This document shows positions 3,795 to 16,902 of a stretch of DNA of 17,083 nucleotides, one piece after another. This DNA comes from an uncultured Angelakisella sp. Its GTDB lineage: Bacteria > Bacillota > Clostridia > Oscillospirales > Ruminococcaceae. A model generated the notes under the pieces. The model searched no databases. It had not been told where the DNA came from and saw only the letters and a list, made by a program, of their open reading frames with translations. Made by a program: the position numbers and the translations under genes. The stretch is taken from the NCBI GenBank assembly GCA_904420255.1, contig CAJFUT010000192.1, positions 1-17,083 on the forward strand, written 5' to 3'. The first letter of the stretch is position 1; every line of letters begins with the position of its first letter.

Positions 3795-4043
3795 ATGTCT
3801 GAGAGAATGAATAACCGGCAGCCCTACCGCCGGCCCGCCGTCCAGCAGGCCTCCGGCCGGTCGCCTGCCGCCGAGCTGGCCCGCGCCGTGCTGGACCGGG
3901 AGGGAGCCTTTGACCAGTTCCCGGTGGCCATGACCTACACACCCTGGCAGCGGTGGTGTGAGCCCTACTGCGCCCAGAAGGGTCTGGAGCGGGGGACCAT
4001 TTTCCCCGATCTGGACCTCCCCTTCGCGGGAAGGAGGTGCTGA
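3795..4043 (+). CDS. cotJA: Spore coat associated protein CotJA
   Basis: This 82-residue protein is the first gene of the cotJABC operon, made in the mother cell and needed for assembling the inner-coat CotJ proteins. Seen: the CotJA core FPVAMTYTPWQRWCEPY...GLERGTIFPDLDLPF at about 40-77, following a variable Arg/Pro-rich N terminus. The ATG at 3795 follows AAAGGAG at 3778-3784. Its stop codon at 4041-4043 lies directly before the cotJB start, which indicates translational coupling. CotJA is often longer in other clostridia through a variable N terminus; this copy is short but complete. The family is confident from the core motif and the operon context. Confidence 0.92.
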   Translation: MSERMNNRQPYRRPAVQQASGRSPAAELARAVLDREGAFDQFPVAMTYTPWQRWCEPYCAQKGLERGTIFPDLDLPFAGRRC

Positions 4044-4045
4044 CT

Positions 4046-4300
4046 GTGTGCAATGAGGAAATGAGGCTTTGGACCCAGCTTCAGGAGGCCAGCTTTGCCA
4101 TTGACGACCTGAAGCTCTATCTGGATACCCATTGTGAGGAGCCCGCCGCCATGGCCCTGTACCAGCAGTACCGCCTCCAGCGGCAGAACGCCATGGAGGA
4201 GTTGGCCCTCCGCTACAGCCCGGTGACCGCGGACCAGGTGCTTTCCCCGTCCAAGTGGACCTGGACCTGCGCCCCCTGGCCTTGGGAAGGAGAGGTGTGA
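4046..4300 (+). CDS. cotJB: Spore coat protein CotJB
   Basis: This 84-residue protein is the second gene of the cotJ operon and acts with CotJA and CotJC in the spore coat. Seen: the family core LQEASFAIDDLKLYLDTH at about 12-29 and the C-terminal tryptophan-rich KWTWTCAPWPWE signature. The GTG at 4046 is preferred over the in-frame GTG at 4037 because AAGGAGG occupies 4031-4037, giving a normal spacing to 4046. The gene starts two bases after cotJA ends and is followed by cotJC after three bases, so the three are one transcript. It is predicted to be helical, without a signal peptide. Identification is firm from motif and context. Confidence 0.92.
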   Translation: MCNEEMRLWTQLQEASFAIDDLKLYLDTHCEEPAAMALYQQYRLQRQNAMEELALRYSPVTADQVLSPSKWTWTCAPWPWEGEV

Positions 4301-4303
4301 CCT

Positions 4304-4903
4304 ATGTGGAATTATGAAAGACGCCTGCAATACCCGGTGAAGATCTGCAAGCCCGACGCCAACGCGGCCCAAATCATCATCAGCCAGCTGGGCGGCCCGG
4401 ACGGGGAACTTGCCGCCAGCATGAGATACCTGAACCAGCGATACTCCATGACCGACCGGAAGGTGGCCGGCGTCCTCACCGACATCGGCACCGAGGAGCT
4501 GGCCCACCTGGAGATGATCGGGGCCATCCTCCATCAGCTCACCCGGAATCTTTCCATGGAGCAGATCGAGAAATCCCCCTTCGCCGCCTATTTTGTGGAC
4601 CATACCGTAGGGGTCTGGCCCTCGGCGGCCTCGGGGATGCCCTTCACCTCGGTGGCTTTCGCCTGCAAGGGCGACCCCATCACCGACCTTGTGGAGGATA
4701 TGGCCGCGGAGCAGAAGGCCCGCACCACCTACGACAACATCCTGCGGATGGTGGATGACCCGGAGGTCCGGGACCCCATCAAGTTCCTCCGGGAGCGGGA
4801 GATCGTCCACTTCCAGCGGTTCGGGGAGAGCCTTCGCCGGGTCACCGACAGCCTGGACAGCAAAAACTTCTACGCCGTCAACCCCTCCTTCGACAGGAAG
4901 TGA
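4304..4903 (+). CDS. cotJC: Spore coat protein CotJC, manganese-catalase family
   Basis: This 199-residue protein is a ferritin-like four-helix coat protein of the manganese catalase family. Seen: the carboxylate and His ligand pattern of dimanganese catalases, with E35 (GEL), E65-x-x-H68 (EELAH), E136 (AAEQKAR) and E166-x-x-H169 (EIVHF). The N terminus MWNYERRLQYPV is typical of CotJC. All ligand positions are kept, so catalase activity in the spore is plausible, as reported for some family members. It is the last gene of cotJABC, has AAGGAGAGG upstream of its ATG, and is followed at once by an intrinsic terminator. An antisense transcript from the T-box promoter at 5219-5247 would cover it. 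Confidence 0.95.
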   Translation: MWNYERRLQYPVKICKPDANAAQIIISQLGGPDGELAASMRYLNQRYSMTDRKVAGVLTDIGTEELAHLEMIGAILHQLTRNLSMEQIEKSPFAAYFVDHTVGVWPSAASGMPFTSVAFACKGDPITDLVEDMAAEQKARTTYDNILRMVDDPEVRDPIKFLREREIVHFQRFGESLRRVTDSLDSKNFYAVNPSFDRK

Positions 4904-5290: not shown

Positions 5291-5350
5291 AAGGCTGTTA
5301 TGGGGGCGGGAGCCGCCCCAGAAGAAAATCATGCAAAGGAGCAGACGATC

Positions 5351-5830
5351 ATGGGAATGGAATCCGCCCGGGCCTGGCTTGCCGCCCGGGGTTTTGAGGA
5401 CCGCATCCGGGAGTTTGACGTCAGCAGCGCCACGGTGGAGCTGGCCGCTCAGGCCCTGGGGGTGGAGCCGGGCTGCATCGCCAAGACCATCTCCCTCTAC
5501 GACGGGGACAGCGCCATGCTGATCCTGGCCGCCGGGGACGCCAAAATCGACAACCACAAGTTCAAGGAGCAGTTCGGCTTCAAGGCCAAGATGCTTTCCC
5601 CCGAGGACGCCCTCCGGTTTACGGGGCACGCCGTGGGGGGCATCTGCCCCTTCGGCCTGGCGAGGGAGCTCCGGGTCTTCCTGGACGTTTCCCTCCAGCG
5701 GTTCCCGGTGGTCTATCCCGCCTGCGGCACCGCCAGCAGCGCCGTGCGCCTCACCTGCAGCGAGCTGGAAGAGGCCAGCGAGGCCATGGCCTGGGTGGAC
5801 GTCTGCAAGCTGCCGGAAAAGGCGGAGTAA
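5351..5830 (+). CDS. YbaK/EbsC-family aminoacyl-tRNA deacylase-like protein
   Basis: This 159-residue cytoplasmic protein has the YbaK/ProXp fold used for hydrolysing mischarged tRNA. Seen: the GCIAKTISLY strand with the likely catalytic lysine K45, DAKIDNHKFKEQFGFKAKML, GHAVGGICPFGL at about 92-103 and VYPACGTASSAVRLT at about 121-135. These match the general YbaK/EbsC family but differ clearly from the Cys-tRNA(Pro) deacylase at 26-508. The ATG at 5351 is preferred over an upstream in-frame ATG at 5300, because AAAGGAG lies at 5335-5341 and the shorter form has the normal family length. A promoter lies at 5262-5290. The substrate (Ala-, Cys- or Ser-tRNA) cannot be read from the sequence. 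A LysR gene follows after 34 bases. Confidence 0.88.
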   Translation: MGMESARAWLAARGFEDRIREFDVSSATVELAAQALGVEPGCIAKTISLYDGDSAMLILAAGDAKIDNHKFKEQFGFKAKMLSPEDALRFTGHAVGGICPFGLARELRVFLDVSLQRFPVVYPACGTASSAVRLTCSELEEASEAMAWVDVCKLPEKAE

Positions 5831-7416: not shown

Positions 7417-7492
7417 AAATGGCCCCGGCTGGGATCCCCCAATTCGCCCAACCTGCACAAAAAGGAGCCCAGGAAATTGGCGAAGCCGCCTA

Positions 7493-7521: not shown

Positions 7522-7542
7522 TTTTGTATCCAAGATACAAAA
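7522..7542. promoter_or_regulatory. Operator palindrome upstream of the GntR gene
   Basis: A perfect inverted repeat, TTTTGTATC and GATACAAAA separated by CAA, starts one base after the -10 box and ends 15 bases before the ribosome binding site. GntR/FCD regulators commonly bind short A/T-flanked dyads of the TTGTATAC-AA kind. A near copy occurs at 9461-9481 (18 of 21 positions identical). Confidence 0.8.
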
Positions 7543-7571: not shown

Positions 7572-8261
7572 GTGAAACGGCTGTCCGAACAACGGATGCG
7601 GCCCATCCGGGACGAAGTCTACGACCTGATCCGCCAGGCCATTATTAACGGCCAGTACCGCCCCGGCGATAAGCTCCCGGAGGAGGAGCTGGCCGAGGAG
7701 CTGGGGGTCAGCCGCACCCCGGTGCGGGAGGCCCTGCGGAAGCTGGAGGTGGAGAACTTCGTCCAGCATTTTTCCCACCGGGGGGTGGTGGTTTCCCAGG
7801 TGAACACCGCCGAGATCCTGGACCTTTACGAGGTGCGCACCCACCTGGAGTGCATGCTCATCCGCAAGGCGGCCCAGCGGGCCACAGCGGCGGATATCGT
7901 CCTGCTGCGGAAAAAGCTGGACCAGGCCGACGCCGCCCAGACCGTCAGCCGCCGGCTGGAGGCGGTGGAGGAGTTCAACGACCTGCTGCTGCGGCTTTCC
8001 GGCAGCCAGCAGGTGCTGGAGCTCCAGAAGCGCACCCGGGAGATGCTCCAGCGGGCGGTGGTGTCCGGCCACGCCGACCCGGTGCGGAGCAAAACCGCTG
8101 CGGCGGAGCACCGGGCCATTGTGGACGCCCTGGAGGCCCGGGACCCGGACCTGGCCGAGCGCCTGGTGCGGGAGCATCTGAGCAATTCCAGCGGCCTCAT
8201 TGCCGCCCGGGAGCGGGAGAAGGAGGGCGGGGAGCCCCCTGCCCCGGAGAAATCAGAATAG
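7572..8261 (+). CDS. GntR-family regulator, FCD subfamily
   Basis: This 229-residue protein is a FadR/FCD-type GntR regulator. Seen: the N-terminal winged helix-turn-helix (about 8-75) with GDKLPEEELAEELGVSRTPVREALRKLE and the HRGVVV wing, then an all-helical effector domain (about 85-212) with the FCD-like pattern R-x-x-LE (VRTHLECMLIRKAA) and a final HRAIVDALEARDPDLAERLVREHL segment carrying a metal-ligand histidine. FCD domains usually bind small organic acids, which fits the tricarboxylate genes that follow. The GTG at 7572 is chosen for AAGGAGG at 7558-7564; the longer open frame from 7419 runs through promoter and operator. prpF starts 17 bases downstream. It probably represses itself and the locus. 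Confidence 0.93.
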   Translation: MKRLSEQRMRPIRDEVYDLIRQAIINGQYRPGDKLPEEELAEELGVSRTPVREALRKLEVENFVQHFSHRGVVVSQVNTAEILDLYEVRTHLECMLIRKAAQRATAADIVLLRKKLDQADAAQTVSRRLEAVEEFNDLLLRLSGSQQVLELQKRTREMLQRAVVSGHADPVRSKTAAAEHRAIVDALEARDPDLAERLVREHLSNSSGLIAAREREKEGGEPPAPEKSE

Positions 8262-8278: not shown

Positions 8279-9415
8279 ATGCTTCAGTCCATTCCCTGCC
8301 AGATTTACCGGGGCGGCACCAGCAAGGGGGTCTTTTTTGCCGAAAAGGACCTTCCCCCCGCCGGCCCGGTCCGGGACAACGCCATCCTGGCCATTATGGG
8401 CAGCCCCGACGTCCGCCAGATCGACGGCCTGGGGGGCTCGGTTTCCACCACCAGCAAAATCGCCATCATCGCCCCCTCAAAAATGCCGGGCTGCGATGTG
8501 GACTACACCTTCGGCCAGGTTTCCCTGGATGTGCCCCTGGTGGATTACAAATCCAACTGCGGCAATATCCTTTCCGCCGTGGGGCCCTACGCCGTGGATA
8601 ACGGCCTGGTTCCGGCGGCGGGGGAAACCACCCTGGTGCGCATCTATAACACCAACACCAAAAAGGTTATCAATTCCTACGTCCCCACCCCCGACGGCGT
8701 GGTGGAATACGCCGGGGACTGCGTCATCCCGGGGGTGCCCGGCAGCGCCGCCCCCATCCGCATCGCCTTTGTCCACCCGGCCGGGGCGGTGACCGGCAGG
8801 CTCCTGCCCACCGGCAGCCCCAGGGATATCCTGGAGGTGCCGGGGCTGGGGAAGCTGGAGGTGTCCTTTGTGGATTCCACCAACCCCCTGGTCTTTGTCC
8901 GGGCCTCGGACCTGGGCCTTGCCGGCTGCGAGCTGCCGGACCAGATCGACGGTGACAAGGAGCTGAGCGCCCTGCTGGAAACCATCCGGGGGGTGGCGGC
9001 GGTGCGGCTGGGCTTCCTTGCCGACCGGAAGGACTCGGTGGCCAAAAGCCCCGCGGTGCCCAAGCTCACCCTGGTTTCGCCCCCCATGGATTACCCCACC
9101 GTTTCCGGCGGCAGGGTGCGGAAGGAGGACTGCGACATCGTCAGCCGGATGATGAGTATGCAGCGGGCCCACAAGACCCACGCCTTCAGCGGCGCCCTCT
9201 GTGAGGCCACGGCGGCGGCGATCCCCGGCACCATCGTCAGCGACATTGTGGGGGAGGGCCACACCCAGATCCGCCTGGGCCACACCGACGGGGTGATGAT
9301 CGCCGGGGTGACCCTGGAGGAGGGGGAGGGGGGCCTTCCCGGCATCCGGGAGGCCTACGGCCTGCGCACCGCCCGCCGCCTCATGACCGGCACCGCCTAT
9401 TACCTGCCCCGCTAA
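8279..9415 (+). CDS. PrpF-family isomerase (copy 1), probable aconitate or methylaconitate isomerase
   Basis: This 378-residue protein has the PrpF fold (two diaminopimelate-epimerase-like halves). The family moves double bonds or switches cis/trans forms in unsaturated di- and tricarboxylates such as 2-methylaconitate, trans-aconitate, 3-methylitaconate and 4-oxalomesaconate. Seen: YRGGTSKGVFF (10-20), QIDGLGGSVSTTSKIAII (47-64), SNCGN (92-96) and GRLLPTG. K60 and C94 lie 34 residues apart, the same spacing as the active-site Lys73 and Cys107 that I recall for Shewanella PrpF. AAAAGGAGAAG precedes the ATG, 17 bases after gntR. There is no prpB/C/D here, so the methylcitrate cycle is unlikely; the next genes, aconitase and isocitrate dehydrogenase, point to aconitate as substrate. 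Substrate is inference. Confidence 0.9.
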   Translation: MLQSIPCQIYRGGTSKGVFFAEKDLPPAGPVRDNAILAIMGSPDVRQIDGLGGSVSTTSKIAIIAPSKMPGCDVDYTFGQVSLDVPLVDYKSNCGNILSAVGPYAVDNGLVPAAGETTLVRIYNTNTKKVINSYVPTPDGVVEYAGDCVIPGVPGSAAPIRIAFVHPAGAVTGRLLPTGSPRDILEVPGLGKLEVSFVDSTNPLVFVRASDLGLAGCELPDQIDGDKELSALLETIRGVAAVRLGFLADRKDSVAKSPAVPKLTLVSPPMDYPTVSGGRVRKEDCDIVSRMMSMQRAHKTHAFSGALCEATAAAIPGTIVSDIVGEGHTQIRLGHTDGVMIAGVTLEEGEGGLPGIREAYGLRTARRLMTGTAYYLPR

Positions 9416-9422
9416 GCCTGTC

Positions 9423-9447
9423 CCGGCCTTCCCGGAGGGAGGGCCGG
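9423..9447 (+). repeat. Intercistronic GC-rich hairpin after prpF copy 1
   Basis: An 11-bp stem (9423-9433 with 9437-9447, one G-T pair) has a GGA loop and no T-run, so it is not a standard intrinsic terminator. It may stabilise the upstream mRNA end or attenuate reading into the aconitase gene. Confidence 0.6.
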
Positions 9448-9460
9448 AGGCTGTTCCTTG

Positions 9461-9481
9461 CTTTGTATCCAGTATACAAAA
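9461..9481. promoter_or_regulatory. Second operator palindrome, upstream of the aconitase gene
   Basis: The dyad TTTGTAT / ATACAAA (9462-9468 and 9474-9480) is centred at 9471 and matches the site at 7522-7542 in 18 of 21 positions. It lies about 37 bases before the aconitase AAGGAGG. A TATACA inside it (9473-9478) could be a -10 box, but no good -35 is visible. Confidence 0.72.
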
Positions 9482-9533
9482 ATAGAAGCACGAAAAGAGA
9501 AAAGCAAACCGACAAAAAAGGAGGCAGCATCCC

Positions 9534-11483
9534 ATGGGAAAGACAATGACCCGCAAGATTCTGGAGGCCCACTACGTTTCCGGCAGCATGGAGCCGGGGG
9601 AGGAGGTGGCCATCCGCATCGACCACACCATCACCCACGACGTCACCGGGACCCCCGCCTACCTGGCCTTTGAAACCCTGGGCATTCCCCGGGTGAAGAC
9701 CCAGGTTTCCGCCAGCTACATCGACCACAACCTGCTCTACGCCGACAACAAGAACCCCGACGACCACCTTTATCTCCAGACGGTGGCGGCAAAGTACGGC
9801 GTCTATCTCTCCAAGGCCGGCAACGGCATCCTCCACACCGTCCATTTCGAGCGGTTCAGTAAGCCCGGCATCACCCTCCTGGGGTCGGACAGCCATACCC
9901 CCACCGGCGGGGCCATCGGGGCCTTCGCCATGGGGGCCGGCGGCCTGGATGTGGCCCTGGCCATGGCCGGGGAGCCCACCTATCTGAAGATGCCCCGGGT
10001 CATCAACGTCCGCCTCACCGGGAAGCTCCGCCCCGGCGTCTCCGCCAAGGACGTCATCCTGGAGATGCTCCGCCGGGAAACGGTGAAGGGGGGCCTTGGC
10101 AAGGTTTACGAGTACACCGGCCCCGGGGTGGACACCATCAGCGTCCGGGACCGCTCCACCATCGCCAATATGGGGGCGGAGATGGGCGCCACCACCTCCA
10201 TCTTCCCCAGCGACGAGGTGGTGCGCCGGTTCTTCATCGACGAGGGGAGGGAGGAGGACTGGACCCCCCTGGCCCCCGACCCCGACGCGGAATACGACGG
10301 CGTCATCGACATCGACCTCTCCGCCCTGGAGCCCCTGGTGGCCATGCCGGATATGCCGGACAAGGTGGCCCCCGCCCGCTCCTGCAAAGACGTGAAGATC
10401 AACCAGGTTTTCCTGGGAAGCTGCACCAACGCCAGCTACACCGACTTCGCCAAGGCCGCCGCCATCCTGGAAGGCCATAAGGTGAACCCCTGGGTCAGCT
10501 TTGTGGCGGCCCCCGGCAGCCGCCAGCTCTACCTGATGCTGCTGCGGGACGGCATCATCGAGAAGCTGGTGCTGGCCGGCGCCCGGATTCTGGAATGCGG
10601 CTGCGGCGCCTGCTGCGGCATCGGCCAGGCCCCCAACACCGGCGGCATCTCCCTGCGTACCTCCAACCGCAACTTCAAGGGCCGCAGCGGCATCCTGGAC
10701 GCCCAGATTTACCTCTCCAGCCCCGAGGTGGCCGCCGCCAGCGCCGTCACCGGCTATATCACCGACCCCCGGGACTTTGGGGATATGTCCGTCCTGGAGG
10801 GCATCCGGGAGCCTCACGATTTCATCATCGACGACACCCTCCTGCTGGCGCCCCCCGAGGACGGCAGCAAGGTGGAGATCATCCGCGGGCCCAACATCAA
10901 GCCCATGCCCATCAACGACCCCATGCCCCAGACCCTCCAGGCCAAGGTGGTGGCGGTGCGGGGGGACAACATCACCACCGACGACATCACCCCCGCCAAC
11001 GCCCAGTTCTCCGCCCTGCGCTCCAATATCCCGGAGATCAGCAAATACGCCTTCAGCCGCATCGACCCCGGCTTCGCCGAGCGGTGCCGGGAGCTGGGGA
11101 AGAGCATCATCGTAGGCGGGGAGAACTACGGCCAGGGCTCCAGCCGGGAGCACGCCGCCATCGCCCCCATGTACCTGGGGGTCAAGGCGGTGCTGGCCAA
11201 GAGCATGGCCCGCATCCACAAGAATAACCTGGTGAACCACGGGGTGATCCCCCTCCTTTTCGAGGACCCCGCCGACTACGACGGTATCTCCCAGCTGGAT
11301 GAGCTGCGCATCGCCGATATCCAGGACCAGATCAAGACCCGCCGCCTGACGGTGGAGAACCTCACCAAAGGCACATCCTTCCCCGTCAAGGTGGACCTGA
11401 CCGACCGGGAGATCAGCGTCCTCATCGCCGGGGGCCAGCTCCGGTATGTGGCGGACAAGAACGCGAAGAAGGCCCAGGGCTGA
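9534..11483 (+). CDS. Aconitate hydratase (short, about 650-residue type)
   Basis: This 649-residue enzyme interconverts citrate, cis-aconitate and isocitrate through a [4Fe-4S] cluster. It is the compact aconitase type in which the cluster domains (about 1-420) are followed by the swivelling domain (about 465-640). Seen: D64-H65 (SYIDHNLLY), GSDSHTPTGG (117-126), cluster cysteines C297 (GSCTNAS), C357 and C360 (CGACCG), substrate arginines R379 and R384 (NRNFKGR), TTDDITPA in the swivel domain, and the catalytic serine loop GQGSSREHAA (533-542). All catalytic positions are intact. AAAAGGAGG precedes the ATG; an alternative ATG lies at 9546. The operator at 9461-9481 precedes it and an isocitrate-dehydrogenase gene follows after 15 bases. 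Homoaconitase-type specificity cannot be excluded. Confidence 0.94.
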   Translation: MGKTMTRKILEAHYVSGSMEPGEEVAIRIDHTITHDVTGTPAYLAFETLGIPRVKTQVSASYIDHNLLYADNKNPDDHLYLQTVAAKYGVYLSKAGNGILHTVHFERFSKPGITLLGSDSHTPTGGAIGAFAMGAGGLDVALAMAGEPTYLKMPRVINVRLTGKLRPGVSAKDVILEMLRRETVKGGLGKVYEYTGPGVDTISVRDRSTIANMGAEMGATTSIFPSDEVVRRFFIDEGREEDWTPLAPDPDAEYDGVIDIDLSALEPLVAMPDMPDKVAPARSCKDVKINQVFLGSCTNASYTDFAKAAAILEGHKVNPWVSFVAAPGSRQLYLMLLRDGIIEKLVLAGARILECGCGACCGIGQAPNTGGISLRTSNRNFKGRSGILDAQIYLSSPEVAAASAVTGYITDPRDFGDMSVLEGIREPHDFIIDDTLLLAPPEDGSKVEIIRGPNIKPMPINDPMPQTLQAKVVAVRGDNITTDDITPANAQFSALRSNIPEISKYAFSRIDPGFAERCRELGKSIIVGGENYGQGSSREHAAIAPMYLGVKAVLAKSMARIHKNNLVNHGVIPLLFEDPADYDGISQLDELRIADIQDQIKTRRLTVENLTKGTSFPVKVDLTDREISVLIAGGQLRYVADKNAKKAQG

Positions 11484-11498
11484 GAAAGGAAGGGAACC

Positions 11499-12656
11499 AT
11501 GGACGAGAATATCCGCCTGGCCCAGGAAAAATTCGGCCAGCTCATTGAAAGCGAATACGCCCGCATCCAGCGGATGAAGGAGGACACCGAGGTCACCGAT
11601 TTCACCAAGCTGGATAAAATCATCGTGGGGGTGCTCCCCGGGGACGGCATCGGCCCCATCATCATGAAGGAAGCCCTCCGGGTGCTGCGGTACCTCATGG
11701 CCCCGGAGCTGGAGAGCGGGCGGCTGGAGATCCGCGTCATCCCCGGCATGACCATCGAGGAGCGGGCCGCCCAGAATGAGAGCCTCCCCCCCAAGGTGCT
11801 GGAGGAGGTCAAAAAGTGCAACGTCATCCTCAAGGGGCCCATGGTGACCCCCCGGGCCGGGGACCCCTGGCCCAACCTGGTGAGTGCCAACAGCCTCCTG
11901 CGCCGGAACCTGGAGCTCTTCGCCGCGGTGCGCCCGGTGAAGATCCCAGAAAAGGGCATCGACTGGGCTTTCTTCCGGGAGAACATCGAAGGGGAGTATA
12001 TCTGGGGCAACAAGGGCATCCAGGTGAACGACGACCTGGCGGTGGACTTTAAGGTCCAGACCCGCCAGGGCAGCCGCCGCATCGCCCGGGCCGCCTTCGA
12101 TTACGCCCGGAAAAACGGCAAGCACAACGTCACCGTGGTCACCAAGGCCAACATTGTGAAGCTGGCCGACGGCAACTTCATCAAGGCCGTCCGGGAGGTG
12201 GGGGAGGAGTACCCCGAGATCGAGATTCAGGAGCGGCTGGTGGACGCCATGTGCGCCAAGATGATGGACCCGGAGTTCAACGCCGGCTGCGAGGTCTTTG
12301 TCCTCCCCAACCTCTACGGCGATATCGTCACCGACGTGGCCGCCGAGCACCAGGGGGGGCTGGGCACCGCCTCCAGCAGCAACATCGGCAACCGCTACGC
12401 CATGTTTGAGGCCATCCACGGCACCGCCCCCTATCTCATCTCCCACGGCCGGGGGGAGTACGCCGACCCCTGCAGCCTCATCCGGGCCGCCGGGATGCTC
12501 ATGGCCCACATCGGCTACGGGGACCGGAAGGAGCGCCTGGACAAGGCCCTGGACATTTGCACCGTCACCGAGCGGAAGGTGGTGGTCACCACCCTGCCGG
12601 AGGACGCCTCCGCCAAGGAATTCACCGACTACCTCCTGGAAGTCCTGGCAAGGTGA
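11499..12656 (+). CDS. Isocitrate/isopropylmalate dehydrogenase family protein, probable isocitrate dehydrogenase
   Basis: This 385-residue enzyme is a beta-decarboxylating dehydrogenase, probably isocitrate to 2-oxoglutarate. Seen: GVLPGDGIGP (44-53), the phosphate/substrate loop with S129-x-N131 and R135 (VSANSLLRRN) characteristic of isocitrate rather than isopropylmalate enzymes, R145 (VRP), R160 and Y167 (FRENIEGEY), K216 (VTKANIVK), metal ligands D275 and D279 (LYGDIVTD), and HGTAP (307-311). About 38 residues precede the usual first strand. The residues after HGTAP (YLISHGRGEY) are neither the clear NAD nor the clear NADP type, so the cofactor is open. It sits 15 bases after aconitase, its direct metabolic supplier. 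Homoisocitrate or other 3-substituted malates are possible alternative substrates. Confidence 0.88.
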   Translation: MDENIRLAQEKFGQLIESEYARIQRMKEDTEVTDFTKLDKIIVGVLPGDGIGPIIMKEALRVLRYLMAPELESGRLEIRVIPGMTIEERAAQNESLPPKVLEEVKKCNVILKGPMVTPRAGDPWPNLVSANSLLRRNLELFAAVRPVKIPEKGIDWAFFRENIEGEYIWGNKGIQVNDDLAVDFKVQTRQGSRRIARAAFDYARKNGKHNVTVVTKANIVKLADGNFIKAVREVGEEYPEIEIQERLVDAMCAKMMDPEFNAGCEVFVLPNLYGDIVTDVAAEHQGGLGTASSSNIGNRYAMFEAIHGTAPYLISHGRGEYADPCSLIRAAGMLMAHIGYGDRKERLDKALDICTVTERKVVVTTLPEDASAKEFTDYLLEVLAR

Positions 12657-12693
12657 TCCCGGCGCCCCACCGAAAAGAAAACAGCATCCCGGG

Positions 12694-12722
12694 CCCGGCC
12701 CCGGGAAGTCTCCCGGGCCGGG
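12694..12722 (+). repeat. Intercistronic GC-rich hairpin before the DUF1847 gene
   Basis: CCCGGCCCCGGGA pairs with TCCCGGGCCGGG (12 bp, one bulged C) around a short AGTC loop. No T-run follows. It fills the 128-base gap between the dehydrogenase and the DUF1847 gene, the largest gap in the right part of the operon. Confidence 0.6.
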
Positions 12723-12784
12723 GGCGGGTCAGCCGCCTCCGGCCCTCCGCGCTCCAAATAACATAAAAGGAGGGGGAAGCTCTG

Positions 12785-13396
12785 ATGTCCGGCTATTTCT
12801 GCGCCGCCTGCGGCGTCAAGAACTGCATCAAGAAGATGGGGGAGGAGGGGGAATACCCCCGCTCCTGCCCCTCCACCGCCCCGGAGATGGCGGAATACCG
12901 GGCCATGTATGACCGGCCGGAGGACTATCATCTGGCCCGGATCTCCACCCTCTGCAGCCCGGACCACAGCGAATGCCGGGTCCTCAAGACCATCCGCTTC
13001 GCCAAGAAGTGCGGCTTCCATCGGCTGGGCCTCGCCTTCTGCACCACCCTGCGGGAGGACGCCCGGGAGGTGGACCGGCTCCTGCGGGAGGCGGGCTTCC
13101 AGGTGGAGAGCCTCATCTGCAAGGTGGGACACCTGGACCGGAGCTTCCTGGACGTGGCCCCCAGCAGCAAGTGCATGTGCAATCCCATCGCCCAGGCGGA
13201 GATGCTCAACCGGGCCGGGACCGAGCTCAACATCCTCCTGGGCCTCTGCGTAGGCCACGATACCCTGTTCATCAAACATTCCGCGGCCCCGGTGACGGTG
13301 CTGGCGGTGAAGGACCATGTCTACAACAATGCGCCCATGGAGTACCTCAGGGAGCTCCGGGAGGCGCGGGAGAAAGAAAAGGAGGCAAAGCCATGA
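12785..13396 (+). CDS. DUF1847 Cys-rich metal-binding protein
   Basis: This 203-residue protein matches the DUF1847 family as I know it: an N-terminal CxxCxxxxC (C6, C9, C14), CPST at 28, RFAKKCGFHRLGLAFCTTLREDA (71-93), LICKVGHLDRSFL (110-122), KCMCNPIAQAEMLNRAGTELNI (129-150) and LCVGHDTLFIKHSAAPVTVLAVKD (154-177). It has twelve cysteines in all, suggesting a metal or iron-sulphur site, and no membrane segment. No function is established for the family. The ATG at 12785 follows AAAGGAGG. It ends four bases inside the start of the second prpF, so the two are translationally coupled. Its place between two isomerase/hydratase pairs suggests a role in maturing the Fe-S hydratases or in the pathway itself; that is a guess from context. 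Confidence 0.87.
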   Translation: MSGYFCAACGVKNCIKKMGEEGEYPRSCPSTAPEMAEYRAMYDRPEDYHLARISTLCSPDHSECRVLKTIRFAKKCGFHRLGLAFCTTLREDAREVDRLLREAGFQVESLICKVGHLDRSFLDVAPSSKCMCNPIAQAEMLNRAGTELNILLGLCVGHDTLFIKHSAAPVTVLAVKDHVYNNAPMEYLRELREAREKEKEAKP

Positions 13397-14526
13397 GAAA
13401 ATTCCCGGTGATCTATATGCGGGGCGGCACCAGCAAGGGGTGCATGTTCCTGAAGAAGGACCTGCCCGAGGACCGCAGCCAGTGGGACCACATCTTCCTC
13501 CAGGTGATGGGCGGCCCCGACCCCAAGCAGATCGACGGCCTGGGGGGCACCGTTTCCTCCAACAACAAGATTCTCATTGTTTCCCCCAGCAGCCGCCCCG
13601 ACGCCGATGTGGACTACCTGGTGGCCCAGGTGGTGGTGGGCCAGCCCATTGTGGACTATTCCGCCAACTGCGGCAACATGACCGCCGCCGTGGGGCCCTT
13701 CGCCGTCATGACCGGCCTGGTGCCGGCGGCGGAGCCGGTGACCAAGGTGCGGATGTACAATGAAAATTCCGGCAAGGTCATCGAGGAGTTCGTCCCGGTG
13801 AAGGACGGCCAGGTGGAGGAGGAGGGGGACTGCGCCATCGCCGGCATCGACGGCACCGGCGCCGAGCTGAAGGTGAATTTCCTGAGTCCCGCCGGGGCCA
13901 AGACCGGCAAGCTCCTCCCCACCGGTTCGGTCCGGGACGAGGTGCTGGTGGAGGGCCTGGGGAAAACCATCCAGGTTTCCGCCGTGGATATCTCCAATAT
14001 CTTTGTATTCATCCGGGCCTCCGACCTGGGGATGCGGGGGGATGAGCTTCCCGCCGAGATCGCCGGCAGCAAGGCCCTGCTGGAAAACATCGAATGCGTC
14101 CGGGGGAAGATCGCCCAGAAGTGCGGCCTGGTGGAGGACTGGCGGGACGCCGCCGCCAAAACCGCCGGCTCCCCCAAGGTGGTGCTGTTTTCCGAGCCCC
14201 GGGATTACACCGACATCGCCGGGCGCCCGGTGAAGGCGGAGGATATGGACATCTGCGTCCGGGTTATCTCGGTGGGACAGCCCCACAAGGCCAGCCCCAT
14301 GACCGCCGCCACCGCCATCGGCGGTGCCGCCTTCCTCGACGGCTGCGTCATGTCCTCCTGCCTGCGGCCCCTTTCCGGGGAGGCGGTGCGCATCGCCCAC
14401 CCCAGCGGCACCATGAAGGTCTATGTGGACCGGGAGGGCAGCGGGGAGGGAATCCGCTTCCGGGGCATCGCCGGCCAGCGCACCGCCCGCAAAATCATGG
14501 ACGGCACCGTTTATATTAAGGATTGA
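13393..14526 (+). CDS. PrpF-family isomerase (copy 2), YbhH-like
   Basis: This 377-residue protein is a paralogue of the one at 8279, with the same order of motifs: MRGGTSKGCMF (9-19), QIDGLGGTVSSNNKILIV (46-63), ANCGN (91-95), GKLLPTG and FIRASDLG. K59 and C93 keep the 34-residue active-site spacing. Unlike copy 1 it has the family-typical GQPHKASPMTAA segment, where copy 1 reads QRAHKTHAFSGA. It overlaps the DUF1847 stop codon by four bases and precedes the YbhJ-like hydratase by three bases. E. coli has the same two families as neighbours, ybhH and ybhJ, around a carboxylate transporter ybhI that is absent here. The pairing suggests the isomerase feeds the YbhJ-like enzyme. The substrate is unknown. 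Confidence 0.9.
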   Translation: MRKFPVIYMRGGTSKGCMFLKKDLPEDRSQWDHIFLQVMGGPDPKQIDGLGGTVSSNNKILIVSPSSRPDADVDYLVAQVVVGQPIVDYSANCGNMTAAVGPFAVMTGLVPAAEPVTKVRMYNENSGKVIEEFVPVKDGQVEEEGDCAIAGIDGTGAELKVNFLSPAGAKTGKLLPTGSVRDEVLVEGLGKTIQVSAVDISNIFVFIRASDLGMRGDELPAEIAGSKALLENIECVRGKIAQKCGLVEDWRDAAAKTAGSPKVVLFSEPRDYTDIAGRPVKAEDMDICVRVISVGQPHKASPMTAATAIGGAAFLDGCVMSSCLRPLSGEAVRIAHPSGTMKVYVDREGSGEGIRFRGIAGQRTARKIMDGTVYIKD

Positions 14527-14529
14527 CAG

Positions 14530-16794
14530 GTGGTGAAGGAAATGGTTACGCTCCACGAGGGAGGATATTATCTTCTGGGGGGCCGGGAATGGGTCCCCGA
14601 CGGGGAAGCCGCCCGGCGGCAGGGCCTCCCCCCGAAAAAGGAGGCGGAGCTGGGGGGCATCGCCCGGCGCATCCTCCGGGACCACAACAAAGGGGAGGGG
14701 GAGGACCTGCTGCGCCTCACCTTCGACAGCCTGGTTTCCCCGGACAACAACTACACCAGCATCCTCCAGACCGCCCGGGCCTCGGGCCTCCGGGAATTCC
14801 CGGTGCCCTATGTCCTTTCCAACTGCCACAATACCCTCTGCGCCGTGGGGGGCACCACCAGTGAGGACGACCACGCCTTCGGCCTCTCCTGCGCCAAGCG
14901 GTACGGCGGCATCTTCGTCCCCCGCTACCGGGGGGTGCTCCACCAGTATATGCGGGAGCGGATGGCCGGCGGCGGCAGGATGATCCTGGGCTCGGACAGC
15001 CACACCCGCTACGGCGCCCTGGGCACCCTGGGCTTCGGGGAAGGGGGCGGCGAGGTGGCAAAGCAGCTCCTGGGCCAGACCTACGACATCGCCCCGCCCC
15101 AGGTGGTGGCGGTGTGGCTCACCGGCTCCCCCCGCCCGGGGGTGGGCCCCATGGACGTGGCCCTGGCCCTGGTGGGGGCCACCTTCCGCAACGGCTTCCA
15201 TAAAAACAAGGTCCTGGAGTTTCTGGGGGACGGCATCGGCGGCCTTTCGGTGGAGTACCGCATGGGCATCGACGTCATGACCACCGAATCCGCCGCCCTT
15301 TCCAGCGTCTGGCGCACCGATGAGAAGGTCCGCCGGTGGCTGGCCCTCCACGGCCGGGAGGAGGACTTCCGCCTTCTGGAGCCCGCCGCCTGCGCCCATT
15401 ACGACGCCCTGGTGGAGATCGATCTTTCCCGGGTGGAGCCCATGATCGCCCTGCCCTTCCATCCCAGCAACGTCCGGACCATCCGGGAGTTCAGCGCCGC
15501 CCCCCGGGAGATCCTGGCGGAGGTGGAGGAGGAGGGCCGGAAGCTCTACGGCGGGGGCTTTTCCCTTTCGGACAAAATCCGGGACGGCCGCCTGATGGCG
15601 GACCAGGCCCTGATCTCCGGCTGCGCCGGGGGGATGTTTGAAAACCTCTGCGCCGTCCGGGATATCCTGGATGGGTACGTCATCCCCGGGGACAGCCTGG
15701 GCCTGGGGGTGAACCCCGCCAGCCAGCCCATCGCCGCCGAGCTGATGCGCCAAGGCATCGCCCAGGACCTGACCCTTTCCGGGGCGGTGGTGCGCCCCGC
15801 CATCTGCGGCCCCTGCTTCGGGGTCACCGACGTCCCCGCCAGCGGCCAGCTGAGCATCCGACACGTCACCCGGAATTACCCCGGCCGGGAGGGGGCCCAG
15901 AAGAACCGGGGCCAGTGGTCCTGCGCCGCCCTCATGGACGCCAGGAGCATCGCCGCCACCGTCCGCCGGGGCGGGCGGATCACCGGCGCCGATGAGCTGG
16001 AGGTTTCCTACCGGGAATATGACTACCATTATAATCCGGAAATCTATGAGAAGCAGGTCTATTCCGGCTGGGGCCGTCCCGTGGCGGAGGAGCCCATCCG
16101 CCTGGGGCCCGGCATCGCCGACTGGCCCCGGATGTATCCCCTGGGGGACCACCTGATCCTCCGGGTCACCGGGGCTTATGAGGGCTCGGTGACCACCGAC
16201 GACCTGATCCCTTCCGGCGAGGCCTCCGCCCACCGCAGCGACCCCAACCGTATTTCGGAGTATCTCCTGGTAAACAAGGACCGGGAGCTGGTGGGCCGGG
16301 CCAAGGCGGTCCGGGAGGAGGAGCGCCGCCGCCGGGAGGAAGACCGCCTGGAGGACCAGGACCTGGCGGAGGCCTTCCGCTGGCTCCGGGAAAAGACCGG
16401 CGCCGGTTTGAGCCAAGTGACCATCGGCGGCCTGCTGGCGGCGCCCCTCCTGGGGGACGGCTCCAGCCGGGAGCAGGCGGCCAGCAGCCAGAAGGTGCTG
16501 GGAGGCTGGGCCAACCTGGCGGAGGAATACGCCACCAAGCGGTACCGTTCCAACCTGATCAACTGGGGGCTGCTGCCCTTTACGGCGGAAGAGCTGCCAT
16601 CCCTGGCGCCGGGCCAGCTTCTGGTGGTGCCCCATATCCGTCAATGTTTGGCGGAAGGGAAAGCCCAGGTGGAAGGATACCTGGTTTCGGAGGGGATGAA
16701 GCCCATCCTCCTGGGGCTGGGCGCCCTGACTTCCACCGAGCGGGAAATCCTTTTGAAAGGCTGCGTCATCAATTATTACCGACGGGAGCAGTGA
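14530..16794 (+). CDS. YbhJ-like aconitase-family hydratase
   Basis: This 754-residue protein is a diverged aconitase homologue, close in length to E. coli YbhJ. Seen: GSDSHTRYGALG (154-165), cluster cysteines C365 (SGCAGG), C426 and C429 (CGPCFG), arginines R448 and R453 (TRNYPGR), TTDDLIPSG in the swivel domain and GDGSSREQA (643-650) with the catalytic serine loop. The Fe-S site and both substrate-carboxylate binding elements are kept. The Asp-His pair of aconitase is here C99-H100 (LSNCHNTL), and there is a long charged helix at about 590-622 (EEERRRREEDRLEDQ). The GTG at 14530 is used; GTG 14533 or ATG 14542 are possible. Probably it hydrates or dehydrates the product of the preceding isomerase. 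Its reaction is not known in any organism to my knowledge. Confidence 0.88.
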   Translation: MVKEMVTLHEGGYYLLGGREWVPDGEAARRQGLPPKKEAELGGIARRILRDHNKGEGEDLLRLTFDSLVSPDNNYTSILQTARASGLREFPVPYVLSNCHNTLCAVGGTTSEDDHAFGLSCAKRYGGIFVPRYRGVLHQYMRERMAGGGRMILGSDSHTRYGALGTLGFGEGGGEVAKQLLGQTYDIAPPQVVAVWLTGSPRPGVGPMDVALALVGATFRNGFHKNKVLEFLGDGIGGLSVEYRMGIDVMTTESAALSSVWRTDEKVRRWLALHGREEDFRLLEPAACAHYDALVEIDLSRVEPMIALPFHPSNVRTIREFSAAPREILAEVEEEGRKLYGGGFSLSDKIRDGRLMADQALISGCAGGMFENLCAVRDILDGYVIPGDSLGLGVNPASQPIAAELMRQGIAQDLTLSGAVVRPAICGPCFGVTDVPASGQLSIRHVTRNYPGREGAQKNRGQWSCAALMDARSIAATVRRGGRITGADELEVSYREYDYHYNPEIYEKQVYSGWGRPVAEEPIRLGPGIADWPRMYPLGDHLILRVTGAYEGSVTTDDLIPSGEASAHRSDPNRISEYLLVNKDRELVGRAKAVREEERRRREEDRLEDQDLAEAFRWLREKTGAGLSQVTIGGLLAAPLLGDGSSREQAASSQKVLGGWANLAEEYATKRYRSNLINWGLLPFTAEELPSLAPGQLLVVPHIRQCLAEGKAQVEGYLVSEGMKPILLGLGALTSTEREILLKGCVINYYRREQ

Positions 16795-16810
16795 TCCCAG
16801 CGGGTGTTTT

Positions 16811-16842
16811 CCGGGGAGCCCTCTCTTACAGGGGCTCCCCGG
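16811..16842 (+). terminator. GC-rich hairpin at the 3' end of the tricarboxylate locus
   Basis: An 11-bp perfect stem (CCGGGGAGCCC, 16811-16821, with its complement at 16832-16842) follows the stop codon by 16 bases. No T-run follows, so it is either a weak or factor-assisted terminator or an mRNA-end stabiliser. Confidence 0.5.
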
Positions 16843-16902
16843 TCCTGCAAAACCACGTCCTCCAATGAAGGACAAAATCCACTGAATACGGAATGGACGC
16901 AC

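Follow-up and report, generated by a model that had tools for sequence, protein, structure and literature searches.

A putative GntR-controlled gene block for aconitate use in an uncultured Angelakisella species

For what purpose would a member of the Clostridia keep two PrpF-family isomerases, an aconitate hydratase (Acn), an isocitrate-dehydrogenase-type enzyme (IDH), a DUF1847 protein and a second, YbhJ-type hydratase together behind one GntR regulator? This question is raised by a 17,083-nucleotide stretch of an uncultured Angelakisella sp. (Oscillospirales; Ruminococcaceae). The stretch, here called the window, is the entire contig CAJFUT010000192.1 (C192) of a bin of 1.98 Mb in 331 contigs that is 81% complete. 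The genes gntR, prpF1, acn, idh, DUF1847, prpF2 and ybhJ all lie on the + strand and run in one direction. The gap between gntR and prpF1 is 17 nt, and the gaps from prpF1 to ybhJ are 118, 15, 128, −4 and 3 nt, with prpF2 overlapping the DUF1847 gene by 4 nt and ybhJ following prpF2 after 3 nt. Gene calls, Pfam and NCBIfam confirmed this closely spaced six-gene block after gntR, which had been described in a prediction made from the sequence alone (the original prediction). That prediction took the block for a catabolic tricarboxylate locus with trans-aconitate as the likeliest substrate, and the data collected here support it. On balance, we favour a regulon under GntR control that would allow growth on aconitate, most likely the trans isomer.

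The main argument for this assignment rests on a shared palindrome and not on the linkage of prpF to acn and idh. The 19 bp sequence TTTGTAT-N5-ATACAAA is present in two perfect copies in the window, one 30 nt ahead of the gntR start and the other 53 nt ahead of acn. If up to three mismatches are allowed, only 0.07 matches are expected in the window, and two matches appeared in none of 200 shuffles. As gntR start we took, judged by eye, the GTG at 7572, which follows a GGAGG and lies just 3' of the palindrome; the mechanical open reading frame begins at 7419. Bin-wide, we found eight matches with up to two mismatches (four perfect and four with two mismatches; none had a single mismatch), and the pattern read backwards, searched at the same threshold as a whole-bin control, gave no match. 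The number of perfect sites expected in the bin is about 0.0001 under a first-order model (66 kb of its own DNA, 65% GC) and 0.04 under a 60% AT model. The third perfect site is 46 nt ahead of the called start of a transporter gene of the CitMHS family on contig C7 (172 bits). This protein stays below the cut-offs of the DASS and ArsB-type NCBIfam models, and its best solved relative is a DASS carrier (E 1e-8). The original prediction had proposed a search for linked carboxylate transporters; this carrier gene lies on another contig, behind the same palindrome. The palindrome pair before gntR and acn points to one regulon and is solid evidence of its kind, with the C7 transporter as a likely member; the block is real and probably co-regulated. 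A second GntR-FCD gene on contig C301, 31% identical to the window GntR, has two two-mismatch sites before its start. Separately, an inverted pair TTGTAT...ATACAA with a 15-nt spacer lies near the right contig end (16909-16935). None is expected from shuffles, and the pair may serve a gene past the contig end.

Both PrpF proteins carry the PF04303 domain in full length, far above its cut-off of 27 bits, and are 46% identical to each other. The active-site residues Lys73 and Cys107 of S. oneidensis PrpF have an aligned K and C in PrpF1 and, via 3g7k, in PrpF2. The accessible part of PMC5690661 states that K73 and C107 variants of the Shewanella enzyme did not support growth on propionate, with mixed remarks on C107; excerpts of the same paper and of PMC11495376 describe aconitate isomerase activity in PrpF-family enzymes. 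We built a tree of 59 rows with a quick method from 91 sequences, of which we used only every fifth from L087-L125 and left out all shorter than 330 aa. The PrpF1 query began at residue 4 (8288), three residues past the start at 8279. PrpF1 falls into a 23-row clade with an SH-like approximate likelihood ratio (SH-aLRT) support of 98 and PrpF2 into a 7-row clade (SH-aLRT 97), whose six other rows each have ybhJ or an aconitase-like gene at the same locus.

The surroundings of 80 named PrpF loci (21 of the PrpF1 clade, 5 of the PrpF2 clade and 54 others, several cut by contig ends) proved informative. A ybhJ gene lies within 6 kb of prpF in 10/21 PrpF1-clade and 4/5 PrpF2-clade loci (14/26 together) and in 0/54 of the others. 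Citrate lyase genes within 12 kb were counted in 2, 1 and 0 loci of these three groups, and CitMHS/DASS-type carriers within 6 kb in 18, 1 and 11. PrpF, YbhJ and a carrier hence form a repeated set, while PrpF together with acn and idh was seen only in the window and in the locus L075 of Clostridiales bacterium BH.7_2. PrpF is scarce in the order, with PrpF1 finding a match at E <= 1e-60 in 2/394 genomes including its own (an even draw in which later-found genus members are unreported), and present in 3/10 genomes of the genus, own bin included (E <= 0.001). Viral contigs gave no match for PrpF2.

Acn passes the PRK07229 aconitate hydratase equivalog model, which has a cut-off of 612 bits. It keeps the Fe-S cysteines and active-site residues of pig aconitase in an alignment that does not reach the stretch around R580. 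In the same genus, genome G009 contains two tandem Acn homologues between a LysR gene on one side and tctC and tctA on the other, showing that Acn homologues sit in tricarboxylate loci here. A LarA-type gene further on in this arrangement (L202, 14295-15578) has malate racemase as its best model, below cut-off.

The IDH stays below the NCBIfam equivalog cut-offs, with best scores of 229 bits (cut-off 509) and 226 bits (cut-off 510), so the name isocitrate dehydrogenase rests on motif residues. The S-x-N-x-x-x-R motif is kept as SANSLLRR when aligned with solved IDHs, and its Ser and Asn are those of the isocitrate-binding helix (S113 and N115 in E. coli IDH). Among the enzyme identities of the original prediction, the two PrpF proteins, the aconitase, the DUF1847 protein and the YbhJ-type hydratase were thus recovered by models, and the dehydrogenase by these residues. 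Just after the motif and in the cofactor loop, the window enzyme departs from the IDH common in Clostridia. The common form has SANVAMRKELDLFANVRPV and HGSAPRMV; the window IDH has SANSLLRRNLELFAAVRPV and HGTAPYLI instead, and L075 and genome G680 contain sequences close to the latter. Class-wide, 93/391 genomes including the own bin contain an IDH at E <= 1e-100, and only that of G680 (73%) is more than 57% identical to the window IDH. Most of its 120 best database matches share 82-85% identity with it. An organism name is attached to seven of them; one is a Clostridium sp., and the other six we take to be Lachnospiraceae or genera placed there. Because the bin encodes a different IDH on contig C166 (SANLTIRK, HGSAPDLM; 55% identical), the window enzyme is an extra copy. 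Other genus members have no IDH closer than 37% to it. The Si-citrate synthase domain PF00285 was found in none of 10 genus genomes, own bin included; Re-citrate synthase was not searched for. For the bin, PF00285 and the AcnD model bear out the original prediction, which saw no citrate synthase or methylcitrate genes in the window.

YbhJ passes the PRK11413 'hydratase' (YbhJ-type) equivalog model (cut-off 641 bits). In a 41-row tree it forms a 4-row clade (SH-aLRT 100) with L075 and the first copies of L046 and L077, and all of these lie in PrpF clusters. Oribacterium (L046) and Paenibacillaceae (L047) each have a single run of prpF, carrier, ybhJ, citDEF and accessory genes of citrate lyase, which in L047 begins with the carrier. 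Within the genus, contig C339 of G009 has the order tctC-tctB-tctA-ybhJ-citF-prpF-citD-citE, and G002 and G005 have ybhJ-citDEF with tct genes and no adjoining prpF. Our bin holds CitF on C315 (E 5.9e-195), TctA on C105 and a second YbhJ on C197. These neighbourhoods suggest a citrate-lyase branch for YbhJ, which the original prediction did not include. YbhJ is an orphan family that E. coli has as well, and the block connects it with tricarboxylate use by its recurrent association with PrpF and, in some cases, citrate lyase. Of all the parts, YbhJ most deserves an experiment. A single paper among the literature searched named both YbhJ and YbhH and, in the portions available, gave no tested enzyme function for them. 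An RraA-like gene adjoins ybhJ in L075 (9254-9901; Pfam; also beside prpF2) and in L077 (3066-3686; 68% identical, tblastn). RraA-like proteins can decarboxylate oxaloacetate, which would fit a citrate-lyase route.

The regulon could operate as follows. The CitMHS-family carrier would import the acid, and PrpF1, PrpF2 or both would shift the double bond of trans-aconitate to give cis-aconitate. Acn would convert cis-aconitate into isocitrate, from which the IDH-type enzyme would form 2-oxoglutarate and CO2 with a gain of reducing power. YbhJ would probably open a second exit to citrate, and citrate lyase, whose gene is on another contig, would cleave this to acetate and oxaloacetate. GntR would occupy the palindromes before gntR and acn and would be released by the acid or a product. 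More speculatively, YbhJ may be a second kind of aconitase that feeds citrate lyase or hydrates trans-aconitate itself. The regulon would then divide trans-aconitate between an oxidative exit (Acn and the specialised IDH) and a citrate-lyase exit, and cassettes of prpF and ybhJ, with ybhHIJ among them, would generally serve trans-aconitate. We put this wider idea forward as a tentative one.

Several observations weigh against a trans-aconitate regulon. The contig itself has neither a carrier nor a citrate lyase gene. Both PrpF proteins fall outside the clade of L074, the Bacillus TarA orthologue, which groups with bacilli. The fourth perfect palindrome (L214, own-bin contig C313, 1490-1508) precedes a LarA gene (1452-157) by 37 nt to the mechanical start or 55 nt to a TTG after GGAGG. 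This LarA passes the lactate-racemase model (576 bits, cut-off 460), and the site may indicate a wider regulon or a second GntR on a like site. YbhJ keeps the Fe-S Cys 358/421/424 and Arg 447/452/580/644 of pig aconitase in 41/41 rows but fails its catalytic set: D100 is replaced by C in all 39 rows that have a letter there, N446 by T and S571 by I in 41/41, and H569 and H646 differ in every row. S643 is kept in 4 YbhJ rows and replaced by Ala in 37. The kept Cys and Arg and the changed residues lead us to expect that YbhJ binds a tricarboxylate at a 4Fe-4S cluster but with altered acid-base residues. Finally, same-order YbhJ genes are mostly solitary, with citrate-lyase neighbours in 3/24 stretches (L138-L161, own C197 included), so YbhJ is not tied to citrate lyase everywhere.

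Also on the opposing side, the nearest solved relative of both PrpF proteins is 3-methylitaconate isomerase, and neither reaches an NCBIfam equivalog cut-off, the best match being oxalomesaconate tautomerase, below cut-off. The PrpF-YbhJ pair might then act on another unsaturated acid (methylaconitate, methylitaconate, 4-oxalomesaconate or the like), with acn and idh only draining the C6 product. The RraA-like genes beside ybhJ would agree with this, since the RraA family includes 4-carboxy-4-hydroxy-2-oxoadipate/4-hydroxy-4-methyl-2-oxoglutarate (CHA/HMG) aldolases. However, neither PrpF belongs to the methylitaconate isomerase (Mii) clade, in which E. barkeri Mii pairs with L163 alone (SH-aLRT 99). 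The prpF of L163 is adjoined by a LeuC/LeuD-like pair (tblastn and by eye), as a dimethylmaleate route would have beside its isomerase gene, whereas the window hydratases are single-chain. Moreover, the AcnD model scores far under its cut-off (167 vs 1420 bits), the bin gave no PF00285 match for a methylcitrate synthase, and an oxalomesaconate route normally begins with ring-cleaving dioxygenases, which were not searched for. We consider another acid unlikely.

Less likely still, acn and idh could be ordinary 2-oxoglutarate/glutamate genes, with PrpF, DUF1847 and YbhJ as chance neighbours. Acn lies within the flank of 15/29 best same-class IDH loci, and a GntR-type gene in that of 5/29; the acn-idh pair is ordinary in Clostridia, and acn beside idh by itself says little. 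Among the 80 named PrpF loci, an Acn-like gene lies within 6 kb in only seven (3 PrpF1-clade, 2 PrpF2-clade, 2 other), and an IDH-like gene is near prpF in a single one (0, 1, 0), namely L075. Against a chance assembly stand the palindrome common to gntR-prpF1 and acn, the rare IDH subclade next to a different IDH on C166, and the renewed occurrence of acn, idh, ybhJ and prpF2 together in L075. The lack of a PF00285 match in the 10 genus genomes argues in the same direction, and the pattern of gltA always beside acn-idh, named by the original prediction as a counterargument, is inapplicable in this genus.

We give very little weight to a detoxification unit that turns trans-aconitate, an aconitase inhibitor, back into cis-aconitate. 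PrpF aconitate isomerases are reversible according to the available part of PMC11495376, and the block has two aconitase-type genes, but such a unit would not need a carrier, an IDH and a second hydratase under one control, and a same-genus prpF sits inside a citrate-lyase operon. A 2-methylcitrate cycle (prp) was rejected on the AcnD score and the missing PF00285, a methylitaconate isomerase or nicotinate-type fermentation on the Mii clade and the single-chain hydratases, and a homoaconitate reading after model and tree tests.

The DUF1847 family of the remaining protein has a member in 10 of 100 genomes, own included. Identities within the window subfamily run from 98% to about 50% and then drop to about 47% (fragments aside). 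The predicted model (predicted local distance difference test, pLDDT, 93) gave no fold match at E <= 0.001, no solved relative was better than E 0.15, the neighbours in nine other loci had no common theme by eye, and our literature search found nothing on DUF1847. Conserved cysteines suggest metal binding, and a role in aconitate use can only be putative. Homologues of DUF1847 (84% identical) and of the IDH (95% identical) are recorded, from identical sources, on contigs of 10,020 bases, probably one contig of a near relative.

The features are collected in Table 1. In addition, the 128-nt gap between idh and DUF1847 (12657-12784) contains a GC-rich stem (z -2.24), a possible processing or attenuation point. 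Further upstream (3795-4903) lie three small genes, the last with a sub-cut-off manganese catalase match; we assume that the trio resembles the cotJABC spore-coat set, a hint of a spore former. Two YbaK/tRNA-editing-type genes are present at 26-508 (match and eye) and 5300-5830 (Pfam), the first 72% identical to the gene ending the G002 cit operon. A chromosomal site shared with the G002 ybhJ-cit operon, suspected from the ybaK and LysR matches, was dismissed as the gene order disagrees.

Table 1. Features of the aconitate block in the window
Feature	Position	Strand	Evidence
Predicted GntR operator TTTGTATCCAAGATACAAA, upstream of gntR	7523..7541	.	0 mismatches; one of four perfect sites in the bin
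gntR, FCD-type GntR regulator, 229 aa	7572..8261	+	Pfam GntR and FCD (scored on the longer open reading frame from 7419)
prpF1, PrpF-family isomerase, predicted aconitate isomerase	8279..9415	+	PF04303 405 bits; K73/C107 equivalents; 23-row clade
Predicted GntR operator TTTGTATCCAGTATACAAA, upstream of acn	9462..9480	.	Perfect palindrome
acn, single-chain aconitate hydratase	9534..11483	+	Pfam Aconitase and Aconitase_C; PRK07229 917 bits
idh, isocitrate-dehydrogenase-type enzyme, distinct subclade	11499..12656	+	PF00180 (Iso_dh) 211 bits; motif
DUF1847 protein, cysteine-rich	12785..13396	+	PF08901 153 bits
prpF2, second PrpF-family isomerase	13393..14526	+	PF04303 401 bits; 7-row clade
ybhJ, aconitase-superfamily hydratase	14530..16794	+	Pfam Aconitase and Aconitase_C; PRK11413 981 bits
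GC-rich hairpin 3' of ybhJ, possible transcript end	16811..16842	+	Fold z-score -3.94 for 16795-16860; no T-run after it

How does a trans-aconitate regulon compare with what is known? According to the excerpt of PMC8871043, no six-carbon organic acid is more prevalent in sugar cane and sweet sorghum than aconitic acid. The original prediction knew of no described anaerobe pathway with this gene set, and this part of it did not hold: its trans-aconitate catabolism is supported as the likeliest reading, but anaerobic use of the acid is already known from Acidaminococcus fermentans. According to the available part of PMC3035267, this organism converts trans-aconitate via citrate and oxaloacetate to pyruvate. 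Like the window, the anaerobe has an IDH, a carrier and two aconitase-type genes among Acfer_1968-1973, with citrate lyase elsewhere, a likeness taken from the gene table of that paper and not from sequences. Unlike the window, the route described there ends in citrate lyase, and that part of the paper names no isomerase. The citrate lyase that marks an Acidaminococcus-type fermentation is encoded in our bin as well (CitF, C315). Literature matches listed for PrpF/citrate lyase, gut aconitate isomerase, trans-aconitate/citrate lyase and trans-aconitate/rumen contained, judged by title and the opening of the abstract, no such operon besides the A. fermentans genome. The words PrpF, anaerobes and Clostridia do not occur in the accessible part of PMC13188880 (2026), which deals with trans-aconitate producers.

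PrpF-family aconitate isomerases that act both ways are known from Bacillus as TarA and TbrA, and trans-aconitate use has been predicted for an Acidaminococcus (both in the excerpts of PMC11495376). As described there, the tar system of Bacillus velezensis (tarR, TarA and the major facilitator superfamily carrier TarB) resembles the predicted regulon in joining a PrpF-family isomerase, a regulator and a carrier for the step from trans- to cis-aconitate, but it has a LysR regulator, one isomerase and an operon without aconitase or IDH. The TarA orthologue in L074 (Bacillus siamensis), where we recognised by eye the order tarR-tarA-tarB and where the gene is 1131 bp long, as published for tarA, is 48% identical to PrpF1 and belongs to another clade. 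In Streptococcus orisasini, ratti and devriesei (L056, L060, L065), prpF stands with a CitMHS-type carrier and a LysR gene, possibly a tar-like system.

E. coli ybhD-ybhH-ybhI-ybhJ likewise combines a PrpF-family gene with a carrier and YbhJ, but under a LysR regulator and with no acn, idh or second prpF adjoining; YbhD has been linked to a malate phenotype, and the enzyme functions of ybhHIJ are not established in the available part of PMC9068703. A further close arrangement is L075, where acn, idh, ybhJ and prpF2 share a strand and the proteins are 58% (Acn), 79% (IDH), 63% (YbhJ) and 56% (PrpF2) identical to those of the window. It differs in the order acn-idh-ybhJ-RraA-prpF2, in the lack of prpF1 and DUF1847, and in its LysR regulators, 2HCT carrier and citDE 9 kb away. 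Since anaerobic trans-aconitate use and PrpF aconitate isomerases were known from A. fermentans and Bacillus, the block is a variant of known systems. The chemistry is mostly known, and what appears new is how these genes are combined under a switch of their own; the block provides a testable gene set, switch included, for the use of aconitate by anaerobes.

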